A DNA stretch of 64,000 nucleotides from an uncultured Lutibacter sp. (GTDB lineage: Bacteria; Bacteroidota; Bacteroidia; Flavobacteriales; Flavobacteriaceae): the NCBI RefSeq assembly GCF_947495725.1, contig NZ_CANLZZ010000004.1, forward strand, positions 310,001 to 374,000, read 5' to 3'. Positions 25,225-31,204 of the stretch are shown here, piece by piece. The notes beneath the pieces are model-generated. The model did not search any database, was not told the origin of the DNA, and saw nothing but the letters and a program-made list of their open reading frames with translations. Every line of letters starts with the position of its first letter. Positions within the stretch are counted from its first letter, which is position 1. Made by a program: the position numbers and the translations under genes.

Positions 25225-26469
25225 TTAATGCTGATTTAATCGAAAGTCAGGATATGCATCCATACCATGCTCATGTATATCCAACCCTTCTTGCTCTTCT
25301 TCGGACGAAACTCTAATACCAACAGTACTTTTTAATGTTTTAATAATTGCATAAGCAGACACCAAACAGGTAACACCCACAGCAACAACACCAATTATTT
25401 GATATCCAAATTGAGCCCAACCAGCTAAATCTCCAAATATTCCAACCGCTAACGTACCCCATATACCACAAATTAAATGAACAGCTATTGCACCAACAGG
25501 ATCATCTAATTTTAACTTATCTATTAAAGAAACACCTAACACAATAAGCGCCCCAGCAATAAACCCAATAACAATTGAATCTGTTACACTCATTAAATCA
25601 GCTCCAGCCGTAATCCCAACTAGCCCTCCTAGAACTCCATTTAAAAACATAGACAAATCATATTGCTTATATTTAAATAAAGAAACTAAAAAAGCAGACA
25701 TTCCCCCGGATGCAGCAGCAACACAAGTTGTAACTAACACAAGTGAAGTAGCTCCAGGATCTGCAGACAACACAGAACCTCCATTAAAACCGAACCAACC
25801 TAACCAAAGAATAAAAACTCCAGCAGTTGCAAAAGGCATATTATGACCAGGAATAGCTCCTACGGAACCATCTTTTTTAAATTTACCAATACGAGCTCCC
25901 AATAACCAAACAGCAACTAAAGCTGCCCAACCACCAACTGAATGCACCAATGTTGAACCTGCAAAATCATAGAACCCTAACTCATCCAACCAACCTAATC
26001 CCCATTTCCAAGAACCAACAATTGGATAAACCAAACCTACATAAACAAGTGCAAATACCATAAATGCTCCCAATTTAACTCTTTCAGCTACAGCTCCAGA
26101 CACAATTGTTGCAGCAGTAGCCGCAAACATACCTTGAAATAAAAAGTCAGTCCAATAAGTATAACCTCCATCAGCATACTCTGCCGTCAATCCATTCTCA
26201 GGTAAACTTAGACCAAATAAATCAACAAAATAATCTGGCAACACACCTCCCCAAATAAACGAACCAGGATACATTAAATTAAAACCTACTAAAGCATAGA
26301 GTATCAACCCAATACATATAATAAATACATTTTTAAACAAAATGTTTATTGTGTTTTTTTGTCTTGTTAATCCAATTTCTAAAAGCGAAAATCCTAAATG
26401 CATTAAAAATACCAACGCGGTACATATCATCATCCAAACATTATTCACTGTAAATAGCGTTTCTTCCAT
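25225..26469 (-). CDS. amt: Ammonium transporter (first copy)
   Basis: The 414-residue Amt channel has about 11 transmembrane helices. The twin histidines are in STLVHSVGGW and VGAIAVHLICG, the Trp/Phe gate region shows GMFAATAATIVSG, and the cytosolic tail IRVSSEEEQEGLDIHEHG is the PII-binding type. It imports ammonium at low concentration. It follows its PII gene by 20 bp and is clearly paralogous to the transporter at 28157-29353, with a longer periplasmic loop at about 78-105. Confidence 0.94.
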   Translation of the reverse strand: MEETLFTVNNVWMMICTALVFLMHLGFSLLEIGLTRQKNTINILFKNVFIICIGLILYALVGFNLMYPGSFIWGGVLPDYFVDLFGLSLPENGLTAEYADGGYTYWTDFLFQGMFAATAATIVSGAVAERVKLGAFMVFALVYVGLVYPIVGSWKWGLGWLDELGFYDFAGSTLVHSVGGWAALVAVWLLGARIGKFKKDGSVGAIPGHNMPFATAGVFILWLGWFGFNGGSVLSADPGATSLVLVTTCVAAASGGMSAFLVSLFKYKQYDLSMFLNGVLGGLVGITAGADLMSVTDSIVIGFIAGALIVLGVSLIDKLKLDDPVGAIAVHLICGIWGTLAVGIFGDLAGWAQFGYQIIGVVAVGVTCLVSAYAIIKTLKSTVGIRVSSEEEQEGLDIHEHGMDAYPDFRLNQH

Positions 26470-26489
26470 AATATAATCTTAAATATTTT

Positions 26490-26828
26490 TTAGTTTAGCG
26501 TATCTGAACCCTTTTCTTTTGTCCTTATTCTGTAAGCCTCTTGAATATCTGAAACAAAAATTTTTCCATCACCTACATGCCCTGTAGCTCCAGAATCCAT
26601 AATTGCCTTAACAGTTCTTTCTAAAAAAGGATCAGAAACCACAATTGATAAATACCTCCTCTGTATATCTGAAGTACTATAGCTTACACCTCTATAAACG
26701 TGCCCTTGCTTTTCATTTCCAACACCAGTTACATCCCAGTAACTAAAAAAATTAACCTCAATTTCATGTAAAGCTTCCTTCACTTCATTGAATTTGGATT
26801 TTCGAATAATTGCTTCAATTTTCTTCAT
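26490..26828 (-). CDS. glnK: PII signalling protein (first copy)
   Basis: The start at ATG 26828 gives 112 residues, the same as the paralogue at 29399-29737; an upstream frame extension contains the promoter. Seen: MKKIEAIIRKSKFNEVKEAL, a T-loop GNEKQGHVYRGVSY, the B-loop TGHVGDGKIFV and the C-terminal YRIRTKEKG. The T-loop is about two residues shorter than the enteric GHTELYRG but keeps the Tyr that uridylylation uses. It controls the Amt encoded 20 bp downstream in response to nitrogen and energy status. Confidence 0.93.
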   Translation of the reverse strand: MKKIEAIIRKSKFNEVKEALHEIEVNFFSYWDVTGVGNEKQGHVYRGVSYSTSDIQRRYLSIVVSDPFLERTVKAIMDSGATGHVGDGKIFVSDIQEAYRIRTKEKGSDTLN

Positions 26829-26858
26829 AATAAACTGTTTTATATAATTGATCGTGTG

Positions 26859-26918
26859 CAAAAGTAAAAAAAAATATTAACCCCCTATAAATTATAGGGG
26901 GTTAATATTTTTTTTTAC
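26859..26918 (-). promoter_or_regulatory. glnK-amt promoter with 27-bp-arm palindrome
   Basis: The minus-strand -7 box TACTTTTG (26859-26866) lies 30 bp before the glnK start. Just upstream is a perfect inverted repeat with arms 26864-26890 and 26892-26918 around one A. Its core is CCCCCTATAAATTATAGGGGG, centred on 26891, 25 bp upstream of the -7 box. A similar motif sits at the same place in the second glnK promoter, which argues for an operator rather than a terminator. Confidence 0.7.
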
Positions 26919-26994
26919 AAAAAATGCAATATTACCCCATACTTTTTAATACATGCAAATCAATAAATGATTTTTTAAGAATATTATACAAAAC

Positions 26995-27031
26995 AAAATT
27001 GCCTAACAACACATGGTCATTAGACAATTTT
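26995..27031 (-). terminator. Terminator after the porin gene
   Basis: On the minus strand, AAAATTGTCTAA and TTAGGCAATTTT pair (one G-U) around a 13-nt loop, and GTTTT follows. It lies 73 bp beyond the porin stop and separates the two ammonium modules. Confidence 0.65.
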
Positions 27032-27103
27032 TAAACTAAACCTCAATTATATATTTTTATAAAGTGGCAATTTACATTAAGATACACCTAATGAAAATAC
27101 ACA

Positions 27104-28108
27104 CTAGAATGAATAAATTGCAGCTATTAAGAATGAAGATAATTTATCTGTAGCCAATCCATCAGCATCAACATACGGCATATCATCACTCCAAGAGTCT
27201 AATCTAATCTCTGGCTTGATTGTTAAATTTTCAACAGTATAACTTCCCGTAAGAGTTGTAGCAAAAACACTTTTTTCAGGATCAACATCAGACTTAGTTC
27301 CAAAATACTCCCCTCTTAAACCTAATGTAAAACCATCTGAAAGACCTAACTGAGGATACAGTGCAGCACCATAAAAACCTTCACCATCGTTATCTGCAAG
27401 AGCAGCATTAATTCCTAAGTAAAAAGAATCTGACACATCAAAACCACCTGTATAATCAATTTCAAAACCTAATGCTTCTCCATTATCATAATATAAATTT
27501 AAGTACTGACCTGCAATTCCAAATTGAGCACCAAGAGAGTAATTACCTGTTAAGTTATTATTTACATCCGTAACATTCATAATAGCCAACATTAAACTAG
27601 CGCTTTCAGATAAAGCAAAATCCGCTTTTAAACCTACGTGTGAAAAAGGCCCACTTGAAAACAAATATGAAGTACTATAGTTAAAATTACCTACTGGAGA
27701 AATAACTTCATACCCTAAGAACGTATTAAATCTACCCATTGTTAAAGTTGTACTTTCTGAAACATTTAAATAAGCATATAACTGATTTAAGTTATAACCA
27801 CCTGTAGCGTCATCACCACGTGGCCCAAAAGTAATATCAGCTACAACACCAGTTTTTTCACCTTCATAAGCCGCAACAATATTAGCCATTCCCATTGCAA
27901 AACCTAATTCATTAGCAAATGACGACCCAAAAGATTGAGCATCAGTATCAGAAGCACTCAAATTAGTTTGGTAATACGCATCTACAGACCCGCTTAAACT
28001 TAATTTTTTCTCTGCTTTTTCTTCTTGAGCATAACCTGAAGCCGTTACAAAAATTACAGCTAAAAGTAGAAATGCCTTTACGTATGTACTTTTTAAAATT
28101 GTTTTCAT
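27104..28108 (-). CDS. Outer-membrane porin (OmpL/bbp2-like)
   Basis: The 334-residue protein has a signal peptide (cleaved after GYAQ at about 28) and an alternating beta-strand pattern with LSLSGSVDAYYQTNL at the start and IAAIYSF ending in Phe, typical of the putative beta-barrel porin-2 family. The barrel is acidic and Gly-rich. It lies 48 bp after the second amt gene on the same strand, so it is likely part of that operon and may let ammonium or another nitrogen source through the outer membrane; that role is inferred. Confidence 0.75.
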   Translation of the reverse strand: MKTILKSTYVKAFLLLAVIFVTASGYAQEEKAEKKLSLSGSVDAYYQTNLSASDTDAQSFGSSFANELGFAMGMANIVAAYEGEKTGVVADITFGPRGDDATGGYNLNQLYAYLNVSESTTLTMGRFNTFLGYEVISPVGNFNYSTSYLFSSGPFSHVGLKADFALSESASLMLAIMNVTDVNNNLTGNYSLGAQFGIAGQYLNLYYDNGEALGFEIDYTGGFDVSDSFYLGINAALADNDGEGFYGAALYPQLGLSDGFTLGLRGEYFGTKSDVDPEKSVFATTLTGSYTVENLTIKPEIRLDSWSDDMPYVDADGLATDKLSSFLIAAIYSF

Positions 28109-28156
28109 TTTTTTAATTTTTATTTATTAATGTTCTTTATTATTTAACCTATCTTA

Positions 28157-29353
28157 TTAATTATATACACTTGATTTATGTTCGTGCTCATCTAATCCAT
28201 CTACCTCTTCTACTTTAGAAACTCTTAACCCAATAGTTTTCTTTAAGATAAACAACACTACAAATGCAGTTGCCGCAGCCCAAGCTCCAATTGCCACAAC
28301 ACCAATTGCCTGAACACCTAATAGTGAAACACCTCCACCATATAACAATCCACCATCAGTTGCGAACACCCCAACCAATAAAGTTCCTAGCGCACCACAA
28401 ACACCGTGTACCGAAACTGCACCAACAGGATCATCAACTTTTAATTTTTTATCGATAAAATCAATTGACAACACAACAACAGAACCTCCGATTAGCCCAA
28501 TAACAAAAGCACCTGCAGGACTAACTGCTGCACAACCAGCGGTTATTGCAACCAAACCAGCTAAAGCACCATTCAACGTCATAGACACATCTGGCTTTCC
28601 ATATCTTATCCAAGAAACACACATAGCAGCAAGAGCTCCAGCCGCAGCAGCCAAGTTTGTAGTAATAACAATACCCGCAACAGCATTTGCACTATCTCCT
28701 GAAATAGCTAATTCAGAACCAGCATTAAAACCAAACCAACCTAACCATAAGATTAGCACACCTAAAGCCCCTAACACCAAGTTATGACCTGGAATCGCGT
28801 TCGATTTTCCATTTGTATATTTCCCTAACCTAGGACCCACTAAAATTGCAGCCACTAGTGCAGCCCATCCACCAACTGAATGTACTACAGTTGAACCAGC
28901 AAAATCAACAAAACCAAGTTCTGTTAACCAACCTTCACCTTGCCACACCCAGTGACCAGAAATTGGATAAATAACCACAGTCATTATAAAAGAAAAGATA
29001 ATATACGTAGTAAACTTTGTTCTACCAGCAATTGCCCCTGAAACAATAGTTGCAGCAGTCGCAGCAAATACAGTTTGAAAAAACAAGTTATGCATATCTT
29101 CTACATTATCGTAAAACAACGTTGGCTTCCCTATAAAAGAACCTATTGTTTCTCCATACATTACAGTATAACCTATTGCCCAGAACCCAATACTCCCAAT
29201 ACAAAGGTCCATTACATTTTTCATAATTATATTTCCTGCGTTTTTCGATCTGGTAAACCCAACCTCAACAAGGGTAAAACCCGCTTGCATAAAAAACACT
29301 AAAATTCCGCAGATCACAATCCACATTAAATCCAATACAGCGTTAGCTTCCAT
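28157..29353 (-). CDS. amt: Ammonium transporter (second copy)
   Basis: The 398-residue channel has the Amt signature in STVVHSVGGW and VGAVSVHGVCG (twin His), VFAATAATIVSGA, and a PII-binding tail LRVSKVEEVDGLDEHEH. It is shorter than the copy at 25225-26469 because the first periplasmic loop is reduced. It lies between its PII gene (45-bp gap) and the porin gene. Confidence 0.94.
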   Translation of the reverse strand: MEANAVLDLMWIVICGILVFFMQAGFTLVEVGFTRSKNAGNIIMKNVMDLCIGSIGFWAIGYTVMYGETIGSFIGKPTLFYDNVEDMHNLFFQTVFAATAATIVSGAIAGRTKFTTYIIFSFIMTVVIYPISGHWVWQGEGWLTELGFVDFAGSTVVHSVGGWAALVAAILVGPRLGKYTNGKSNAIPGHNLVLGALGVLILWLGWFGFNAGSELAISGDSANAVAGIVITTNLAAAAGALAAMCVSWIRYGKPDVSMTLNGALAGLVAITAGCAAVSPAGAFVIGLIGGSVVVLSIDFIDKKLKVDDPVGAVSVHGVCGALGTLLVGVFATDGGLLYGGGVSLLGVQAIGVVAIGAWAAATAFVVLFILKKTIGLRVSKVEEVDGLDEHEHKSSVYN

Positions 29354-29398
29354 AATTTTTTATTTTTTAATAATTAGTTAATTCTTTTTTTTAATTTT

Positions 29399-29737
29399 TT
29401 AGTTTACAGCGTCAGTTCCTTTTTCCTTGGTTCTAATTCTATAAACCTCATCAATTGTAGAGACAAATAATTTACCATCTCCTACCATTCCTGTTCCTGC
29501 AGATTTTAGAATTGCATCAATAGTTATATCTAAGAAAGGATCAGAAACTACAATAGACAAAAATCTTCGTTGTATATCTGTTGTGCTATAACTAACACCT
29601 CTATAAACATGACCTTGTTTTTCGTTTCCAACTCCAGTTACATCCCAGTAACTAAAAAAATTGACTTCAATTTGATGTAAAGCTTCTTTAACTTCATCAA
29701 ATTTTGACTTTCTAATAATAACTTCAATTTTCTTCAT
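29399..29737 (-). CDS. glnK: PII signalling protein (second copy)
   Basis: The 112-residue protein differs from the first copy at only a minority of positions. It keeps the T-loop GNEKQGHVYRGVSY exactly, with B-loop VGDGKLFV and the C-terminal YRIRTKEKG. Differences cluster at about 72-90 (DITIDAILKSAGTGM against ERTVKAIMDSGATGH). The pair arose by duplication of a glnK-amt unit. It is the first gene of a glnK-amt-porin operon. Confidence 0.93.
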   Translation of the reverse strand: MKKIEVIIRKSKFDEVKEALHQIEVNFFSYWDVTGVGNEKQGHVYRGVSYSTTDIQRRFLSIVVSDPFLDITIDAILKSAGTGMVGDGKLFVSTIDEVYRIRTKEKGTDAVN

Positions 29738-29768
29738 AATAAAGTGATTTTTATAATTGATTTCTTGA

Positions 29769-29862
29769 CAAAAATATATTTATTTTTTTTACCCCCCTAA
29801 TTTTTAGGGGTAGTAAATGTTATTTTTACATTTTATTTATTTTTACCCCTATTTTTTTAGGG
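29769..29862 (-). promoter_or_regulatory. Second glnK-amt promoter with two CCCCTA/TAGGG palindromes
   Basis: The -7 box TATTTTTG (29769-29776, minus strand) lies 31 bp before the glnK start. CCCCTA-N5-TAGGGG at 29794-29810 is centred 26 bp upstream of it, and a second copy, CCCCTA-N6-TAGGG at 29846-29862, is 52 bp further. The first copy matches the position of the motif in the other glnK promoter. Confidence 0.65.
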
Positions 29863-30238
29863 TTTTGCAATTTTGATATGCTATTTTATCAATTTTAGAC
29901 TTCTTTTACCTGAGCTTTACAACTTCACGGATAATAGAAGACATAAAAAAAATGTTAAATAGTTTAATTTTGAAGATTCAACGCATAACAAATCAGCTAG
30001 AAAACTGATTATCTAAGCTAGAATTATAAAATTAGATGGAGAATTAACCTAAATGAGAAATATGATAGGTTTATATAAAAAATAGAATATAATTAAGTTA
30101 CACCGTTAAATAATGCATTATTTAAACAACACTTAAATATATAATTGAATAATACTTTGAATATTTAATGAAATAAATTCCATAAAAACAAAACATTAGG
30201 AAAAGGTAATAATTATACTAATAAAAATGGTAAATCAA
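29863..30238. other. Non-coding stretch upstream of the glnK-amt-porin operon
   Basis: I find no gene, tRNA, repeat or convincing promoter in these 376 AT-rich bases beyond the operator region on their left. Short open frames are all under 15 codons. Confidence 0.5.
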
Positions 30239-31204
30239 TTATTTAAAATCCAATTTACTAACATCCACCCAACTCCATTTACCCATTACAGTGCCGTTTT
30301 GCAAGGTTATAACACCTGGGTTTGACCTAATAATTGTTTTTAACATGGTTTCATCACCAAACAACATATCGAAATTTAAATTATATGTGTTTTTTATTTC
30401 AGAAAATTCTTCATTTAAAGAAGACGACAATGCATATACCAAATATCCATTATCAATTGCTTTATCTGTAACAACTTTAATATTTGAAAAACCCTCTTTA
30501 TCACTAACACTTAAATTATATGCCACAACTAACATTACCTTATCACCTTGTAATATTGAAGTTGTAAGATCTTCTCCATCACTAGATTCCAAATAAAAAT
30601 CATGAATTGGAGGCTCTATGTCGCCCACATATTCCATACCATCTGGAATGTTTTTTCCAATTGCATAAGGTCTAAAATCTATTAAAGGTAAATGGACTAA
30701 CACATAATATATAATATATAAGAAAAGAAAAAACGAAAGAAACGAACTCCATTTAGCAACACTAATATTAAATAATGGTTTAATTTCTTTAACACCAATA
30801 ACTAAAATAGCAATAAACGCAATTAATACTATATTTTTATAAAAAGTTCCCCAACTGGATAGTTTTACAGCATCACCAAAACAGCCACAATCTGTTACCT
30901 TATTATAATATGCCGAATACCACGTTAAAAAAAGAAATACCAATATAATACCAAGCAAACTCCAAACAGTTAATTTTGGCAAATACCCAACCAACAACAT
31001 AACACCAAGCATTATCTCTGCTAATATTAATATAATAGAAAAAGGTAATGCATAGGGAATTAAAAATTCTAGATTTAAAACATCAGCTCCAAAATACTCT
31101 TGAAACTTATATGTTGACCCCAAAGGATCGACTAATTTTACAAATCCTGAAAAAATAAATGTTAAAGAAACGATTAAGCGAGAAATGTGAATTAGTATTT
31201 TCAT
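30239..31204 (-). CDS. BT_3928-type DoxX/MauE-like membrane protein with thioredoxin-like domain
   Basis: The 321-residue protein has an N-terminal four-helix DoxX/MauE-like membrane part (ISRLIVSLTFIFSGFVKLVDP at the start, TDCGCFGDAVKLS at about 107-119 with a CxC pair), a fifth helix near 160-180, and a C-terminal soluble part (about 200-321) that looks like a degenerate thioredoxin fold (PPIHDFYLESSDGED, then NPGVITLQNGTV) without a CxxC. Redox or protein-thiol function is inferred. ATG 31204 is preferred over one five codons upstream that overlaps the DUF1599 gene by 11 bp. Confidence 0.75.
   Translation of the reverse strand: MKILIHISRLIVSLTFIFSGFVKLVDPLGSTYKFQEYFGADVLNLEFLIPYALPFSIILILAEIMLGVMLLVGYLPKLTVWSLLGIILVFLFLTWYSAYYNKVTDCGCFGDAVKLSSWGTFYKNIVLIAFIAILVIGVKEIKPLFNISVAKWSSFLSFFLFLYIIYYVLVHLPLIDFRPYAIGKNIPDGMEYVGDIEPPIHDFYLESSDGEDLTTSILQGDKVMLVVAYNLSVSDKEGFSNIKVVTDKAIDNGYLVYALSSSLNEEFSEIKNTYNLNFDMLFGDETMLKTIIRSNPGVITLQNGTVMGKWSWVDVSKLDFK

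Follow-up and report, generated by a model that had tools for sequence, protein, structure and literature searches.

A conserved CC-N13-GG palindrome as the probable operator of a nitrogen-assimilation regulator in Flavobacteriaceae

We analysed a 64,000-nucleotide stretch of the genome of an uncultured Lutibacter sp. (contig NZ_CANLZZ010000004.1, positions 310,001 to 374,000; the window), in which two operons encoding a PII protein and an ammonium transporter, glnK1-amt1 and glnK2-amt2, are each preceded by a palindrome of CCCCTA and TAGGGG half-sites. Judged from its sequence context across the family, the palindrome is very likely bound by a nitrogen-control protein, and the whole is probably best explained as the operator of a dedicated Flavobacteriaceae nitrogen-assimilation regulator.

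An initial annotation had placed CCCCTA-N7-TAGGGG and CCCCTA-N5-TAGGGG upstream of the two glnK genes, and both lie where it put them, at 26882-26900 (centre 26891) and 29794-29810 (centre 29802). With gaps of 3-9 bp, the core was matched in none of 100 dinucleotide shuffles of the window; with gaps of 4-8 bp, the exact core occurs twice in the 4.24-Mb genome, both times upstream of a glnK-amt operon, and the reversed control pattern does not occur. Both -7 boxes, TACTTTTG and TATTTTTG, fit TAnnTTTG, which PMC9723704 gives for F. psychrophilum as the sigma-A box spanning -12 to -5, and the sequence agrees with the annotated absence of a clear TTG at -33 in both promoters. The reported dyad-to-box distances of 25 and 26 bp are those to the edge of the box; measured between centres, they become 28.5 and 29.5 bp. 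Each promoter does carry the palindrome described, and glnK2 has a second dyad (29845-29863) that had been overlooked.

The motif itself had to be redefined. Counting only dyads with A/T-only spacers and C/G runs of at least three, we obtained 73 distinct dyads upstream of glnK, spread over 55 of the 76 loci, with A/T stretches of 9-13 bp and 17-20 bp from the first C to the last G. A CC-N13-GG pattern is allowed by all 73, compared with 72 for N12, 66 for N11 and 56 for N14. What stays constant is CC-N13-GG and not CCCCTA at a variable spacing; the 5-7 bp between the half-sites are a by-product of C/G-run length.

Searching with CC-N13-GG only, we found two dyads in 47 of the 76 named glnK loci, one in 19 and none in 10. 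Including glnK2 of the window, paired dyads occur in 48 of 78 glnK promoters, always 52-54 bp apart, and in the 40 paired promoters with an exact TAnnTTTG the proximal and distal dyads lie 29-31 bp and 82-84 bp upstream of the box centre. An exact box and enough sequence were present in 49 of the 78 promoters, of which 33 were kept after removal of near-duplicates. Aligned on the box alone, these 33 show conservation of CC and GG in both dyads, the two being exactly 13 bp apart in each, and of a further element, TAAAAAT, between the dyads, with one A column invariant (33/33) and a weaker first T. The CC/GG and AAAAAT columns carry 0.6 to 2.3 bits, above the 95% point (0.47) and also the maximum of the shuffled alignments. 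The glnK2 promoter of the window has the complete architecture of two dyads, TAAAAAT and box; at glnK1 the promoter-side half alone of the distal dyad is kept, in the expected register (Table 1). Judged by eye, the glnK1-type promoters of loci L178 and L179 likewise retain no more of the distal dyad than this half, and that of L180 a weak version of it.

Table 1 Features of the two glnK-amt operons and their promoters in the window
Feature	Position	Strand	Basis
amt1, ammonium transporter	25225..26469	-	TIGR00836 above cut-off
glnK1 (PII)	26490..26828	-	PF00543 above cut-off; start 26828 by homology
-7 box of glnK1, TACTTTTG	26859..26866	-	Sequence; TAnnTTTG sigma-A box match
Proximal dyad of glnK1 (core 26882-26900), perfect inverted repeat with 27-nt arms	26864..26918	.	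Sequence scan
A-tract of glnK1, minus strand GTAAAAAAAAA	26908..26918	-	In or one base off the TAAAAAT register; overlaps the long arm of the dyad
Remaining half of distal dyad at glnK1 (GGGG on minus strand, CCCC on plus)	26935..26938	-	Conserved GGG columns, 33-promoter alignment
Beta-barrel porin (BBP2 family), 3' of glnK2-amt2	27104..28108	-	PF07642
amt2, ammonium transporter	28157..29353	-	TIGR00836 above cut-off
glnK2 (PII)	29399..29737	-	PF00543 above cut-off
-7 box of glnK2, TATTTTTG	29769..29776	-	Sequence
Proximal dyad of glnK2, centre 29802, 29.5 bp upstream of -7 box centre	29792..29811	.	Pattern scan
TAAAAAT element of glnK2, between the two dyads	29822..29828	-	Sequence and alignment
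Distal dyad of glnK2, centre 29854, 52 bp from proximal dyad	29845..29863	.	Pattern scan

Conservation upstream of orthologous glnK genes, on which the initial annotation had staked its proposal, was thus found across many genera. A sample of the phylum was also examined: related PII proteins were present in 79 of 148 genomes, and among the 30 loci examined, glnK dyads were found in 4 of 9 family loci (that of the window's genome included) and in 0 of 21 non-family loci, two of the latter from the same class.

Within Lutibacter, 31 of 38 genomes contain the exact core, at 40 distinct sites, all of which were examined: 27 precede glnK (by 62-224 bp), 12 precede the gene for type-III glutamine synthetase (GSIII, identified by PF12437; 78-88 bp) and one, L177, is terminator-like. 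The suggested search of relatives therefore placed 39 of 40 sites upstream of glnK or glutamine synthetase genes, against two sites for the reversed control in the same 38 genomes. In the window's own genome, a looser pattern (ACCCYW-N4-9-WRGGGT) matched eight places, namely the distal dyad of glnK2, one dyad lying between the GSIII and GSII genes, which are divergent (G000:C9:74395; GSII by PF00120 and PF03951), four places within open reading frames and two judged terminator-like by eye. Both glnK-amt operons had been named as the regulated set; they belong to it, and the glutamine synthetase genes do too.

Across the family, the exact core is present in 117 of 249 genomes. Among 30 automatically chosen sites (L118-L147; the hand-picked L148-L176 are excluded from these counts), 14 of 19 A/T-only sites but 0 of 11 mixed-spacer sites lie before ammonium-assimilation genes; with the Lutibacter sites (39/40), this indicates restriction to promoters of such genes. 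The 19 A/T-only sites precede amt (4), GSIII (3), glnK (3), porin (2), gltB (1), GSII (1) or none of these (5). The further sites L148-L176, picked by hand among the matches listed and mainly with A/T-only spacers, lie before assimilation genes in 18 of 28 A/T-only cases (glnK 8, GSIII or GSII 5, porin 3, ald 2, none 10) and in 3 of 3 mixed cases (glnK or amt). We confirmed ald by TIGR00518 and gltB by PF00310 with PF04898; in L126, L134, L156 and L164, the dyad before the porin gene is flanked on its other side by a divergent gltB. At L124 (G213:C8), an A/T-only dyad is found just 3' of a gene for a nitrate-type ABC transporter (TIGR01184 above cut-off), with two small unknown genes after it; in some genera, nitrate uptake may therefore be tied to the gene set.

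Several results weigh against reading the palindrome as the operator of a dedicated nitrogen-assimilation regulator. N12 describes the glnK dyads almost as well as N13 (72/73 versus 73/73), and 10 of the 76 named glnK loci have no dyad and 19 a single one. Of the 249 family genomes, 132 have no exact core and 44 contain the reversed control, so part of the 117 positive genomes reflects chance. In the window's own genome, looser patterns barely exceed their reversed controls (8 versus 5; 30 versus 27), and gltB has no dyad. In a survey restricted to genes whose alignment starts at a start codon and within 12 residues of the N terminus, no dyad was found before the 27 porin, 6 gltB and 102 amt starts that passed; the porin, gltB and amt loci counted above as dyad-bearing fell outside this filter. 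Finally, when all genes are considered, helical phasing is no more than moderate. With all Lutibacter GSIII loci entered as one value, dyad-to-box distances lean to one helical phase over 19 values (p 0.004) and also when one value per class is used apart from GSIII (13 values, p 0.03); GSIII alone does not show this lean (10 values, p 0.19).

Placement relative to the box differs between genes. In 11 Lutibacter loci the GSIII dyad is 40.5 bp from the box, in a twelfth 41.5 bp, and outside Lutibacter the distance ranges from 29.5 to 98.5 bp; the GSII dyad lies 79.5-85.5 bp from the box in seven relatives with an exact box and 81 bp in the window's own genome. Tandem dyads 53-54 bp apart also precede ald in two cases, in promoters that have no exact TAnnTTTG. 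The proposal that the palindrome replaces the -33 element may hold at glnK but fails as a general rule, glutamine synthetase dyads being mostly at least 40 bp from the box.

The observed architecture suggests a mechanism in which one protein dimer would bind each 17-bp CC-N13-GG unit with its A/T-rich core. Most glnK-amt promoters would accept two dimers five helical turns apart, flanking the conserved A-tract, at about -38 and -91 from the transcription start if the centre of the -7 box is taken as -8.5. The bound protein would most likely activate sigma-A RNA polymerase under nitrogen shortage, at a promoter with a good TAnnTTTG box and no -33 element. We favour such activator dimers acting with the housekeeping polymerase because of the fixed glnK spacing, the sites five turns apart, the missing -33 element and the gene set. 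The same regulator would control GSIII and GSII in the window's own genome and, in relatives, also gltB, an Amt-linked porin, other amt genes and alanine dehydrogenase. A regulator site coupling both ammonium operons, as first proposed, is supported by the conserved architecture and the gene set; the coupling to nitrogen status itself we infer. An unlikely alternative is a repressor whose dimer covers -33 and blocks polymerase under nitrogen excess, with the second dyad assisting by looping. It would suit the overlap of the proximal glnK dyad with -33, the second site five turns away and the variable GSIII distance outside Lutibacter, but a GSII dyad about 80 bp upstream of the box is far for simple occlusion, and the glnK distance is held within 1-2 bp where no -33 element is seen.

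We also considered whether the palindrome is an intrinsic terminator or an RNA hairpin (attenuator) instead of a protein site. A T-run follows the long arms at glnK1, where a terminator was called on the minus strand; several exact-core matches elsewhere (AAAACCCC..GGGGTTTT) are terminator-like as well. However, a terminator shape (G+C stem plus U-run) is found at glnK1 alone among the dyads of the window, the longest perfect arm, measured from the centre, among 97 exact A/T-core sites scanned in other loci is 15, at a terminator-like site, versus 27 at glnK1, and CC-N13-GG holds length constant. No Rfam family reached its gathering score in 26400-30300, and the porin gene has a separate terminator-like hairpin at 26995-27031. 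No other scanned site has arms as long as those of glnK1, and the dyads sit at a fixed distance on the upstream side of the box, which makes termination very improbable as the conserved role. Between these readings, the fixed placement speaks for an activator.

We next turn to the protein that might bind the operator. Our best candidate, still a tentative one, is an AsnC/Lrp-family protein (L415:90-557, L352:5425-5829), whose nearest NCBIfam model is AsnC, below cut-off. In genome G265 it is encoded two genes beyond an ald (TIGR00518) with tandem dyads, in the order leuS, SemiSWEET, dyads, ald, zinc peptidase, Lrp/AsnC, and a 69%-identical copy exists in genome G201, which is 1.4 Mb in size and carries dyads at GSIII/GSII and upstream of gltB. 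There it is one of four Pfam-confirmed transcription factors, alongside a MerR protein, an OmpR-type response regulator and a sigma-54 activator, in the 747 kb scanned with regular expressions (673 called genes, about half of the genome). According to PMC4046817, the Lrp-family protein Ss-LrpB binds as cooperative dimers on A/T-centred palindromes at regularly spaced sites. Against this candidate, the adjacency to ald is seen in one genome only, its detection in G201 relied on regular expressions over about half of the genome, and Lrp consensus sites do not match; the sites are 15 bp long, compared with a unit of 17 bp. A short MerR protein of GlnR/TnrA type is a considerably weaker contender. 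The GlnR/TnrA site, TG-N13-CA, has the same 17-bp geometry, and the 106-residue MerR protein of G201 weakly matches the GlnR and TnrA structures; yet these matches spread across MerR proteins generally, its neighbours look housekeeping-like by eye, and small MerR proteins of that kind are, to our knowledge, phylum-wide, whereas the dyad was found in 0 of 21 non-family loci.

A 139-residue protein encoded beside gltB (L188:804-1220, minus strand; G000:C4:18412-18828) resembles IS1 transposases in their N-terminal part (NF033558, below cut-off). It was rejected as the regulator because its distribution does not match that of the operator: it is present in 28 of 38 Lutibacter genomes versus 24 of 249 family genomes, occurs in only two (G199, G212) of 14 family genomes with a supplied site before an assimilation gene, and is absent from G016 (160 contigs, rated 100% complete) and G027 (one contig), both of which have the operator before glnK (L091, L101). 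The protein has one strong copy per genome, is 83-91% identical in 27 other of the 38 Lutibacter genomes and shares its locus with gltB in 25 of 28 cases; it looks like a domesticated transposase-derived regulator. A different palindrome, ATTAYAACGTTTTCGTAAT, lies 57-81 bp before the inferred gltB start (L189-L216 and L250) and is possibly the operator of this protein. Among 51 loci with the transposase-like protein, no gltB start was found in 25 (22 of them from other genera), and ATTAYAACGTTTTCGTAAT is present in 23 of the 26 gltB promoters with an identifiable start, with near-matches by eye in the other three.

Autoregulation was not evident, with no convincing regulator gene beside the family sites examined, and gene clustering of the glnK flanks, inspected by eye, gave no regulator genes other than an ArsR-like one (six Flavobacterium loci) and a BlaI-like one (two loci). 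Noted by eye were an ECF-sigma-like gene 301 bp from the A/T-only site of L128 and a DtxR-like gene at the mixed-spacer site of L129.

On the minus strand of the window, glnK2-amt2-porin is followed by glnK1-amt1, and in a homology search the PII protein was 95% identical to PII of L. citreus and L. oceani. The BBP2-type porin recurs near glnK-amt across the family, with a dyad of its own upstream of the homologue in four relatives, and perhaps provides an outer-membrane entry route for ammonium. In two genomes (L303:6830-8020, L310:1-1194), glnK-amt-porin is followed by a gene for an exported protein that is weakly amidohydrolase-like, below cut-off. The window's own genome has a third amt-PII pair (L314:11336-12952; G000:C3), with amt first, PII second and thrABC-like genes upstream; its PII is 40% identical to that of glnK2, and the degenerate dyad patterns applied to this genome gave no dyad there.

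Marine Flavobacteriaceae are major degraders of algal matter. In the open-access literature that our search covered, we found no description of the motif, of the operator or of a regulator of nitrogen assimilation in the family. The operator would define a family-wide gene set comprising glnK-amt, GSIII and GSII, together with gltB, porin and ald in some genomes. It also offers a bait of known geometry for a regulator search, and a well-defined case for the control of the Bacteroidota TAnnTTTG promoter.

Lastly, we compared the operator with established nitrogen-control systems, scoring consensus sites for NtrC, sigma-54, NtcA, GlnR/TnrA, Lrp and CRP against the promoters of the window; none of them fits the dyads. 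NtcA, a CRP-family protein, activates glnA and amt in cyanobacteria from a site near the -35 region, a position similar to that of the proximal dyad, and its GTA-N8-TAC in the -41 region was not found at the proximal dyads (best 1/6 mismatch elsewhere). GlnR and TnrA, of the MerR family, regulate amt, glnK, glutamine synthetase and GOGAT genes in Bacillota through a 17-bp palindrome with N13 between its outer dinucleotides, as here, but their half-sites are TGT/ACA instead of CC/GG, and the best match to TGTNA-N7-TNACA had 2/8 mismatches, off the dyad centre. In Proteobacteria, NtrC and sigma-54 act through tandem palindromic sites upstream of glnK-amtB and glnA, and the present operator likewise has tandem palindromes upstream of glnK-amt and also lies before glutamine synthetase genes. 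The absence of an NtrC-type site and of a sigma-54 promoter, as annotated at the outset, was upheld: TGCACC-N5-GGTGCA had 6/12 mismatches at best, and TGGCAC-N5-TTGCW had 4 and 5/11 at best in the two 140-bp promoters. The glnK promoters have sigma-A boxes, unlike the -24/-12 promoters of NtrC/sigma-54 systems, and in F. psychrophilum PMC9723704 assigns sigma-54 promoters mainly to protein quality control, envelope stress and gliding. Fifteen-bp Lrp/AsnC sites, whether YAGHAWATTWTDCTR-like or TTGCAAAATTTGCAA-like, had at least 3/15 mismatches. Lrp and AldR control gltB and ald in other organisms, and both genes are also in the present set in relatives. Like the present dyads, the sites of Ss-LrpB (PMC4046817) are A/T-centred palindromes; they take up several dimers in a regular array, which the dyad pairs 52-54 bp apart in 48 of 78 promoters may or may not parallel. 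The sites of Lrp/AsnC regulators (Lrp, AsnC, AldR and Ss-LrpB) differ in their 15-bp length and in their half-sites, and their tie to the present operator is gene neighbourhood in one genome. About as likely as not is the broader proposal that ammonium assimilation in Flavobacteriaceae is run by a global nitrogen regulator of the family's own, distinct in site and mechanism from NtrC, NtcA, GlnR, AmtR and NrpR, whose paired dimers, five helical turns apart around a conserved A-tract, would build a looped or wrapped complex in place of the -33 element of the unusual TAnnTTTG promoter.

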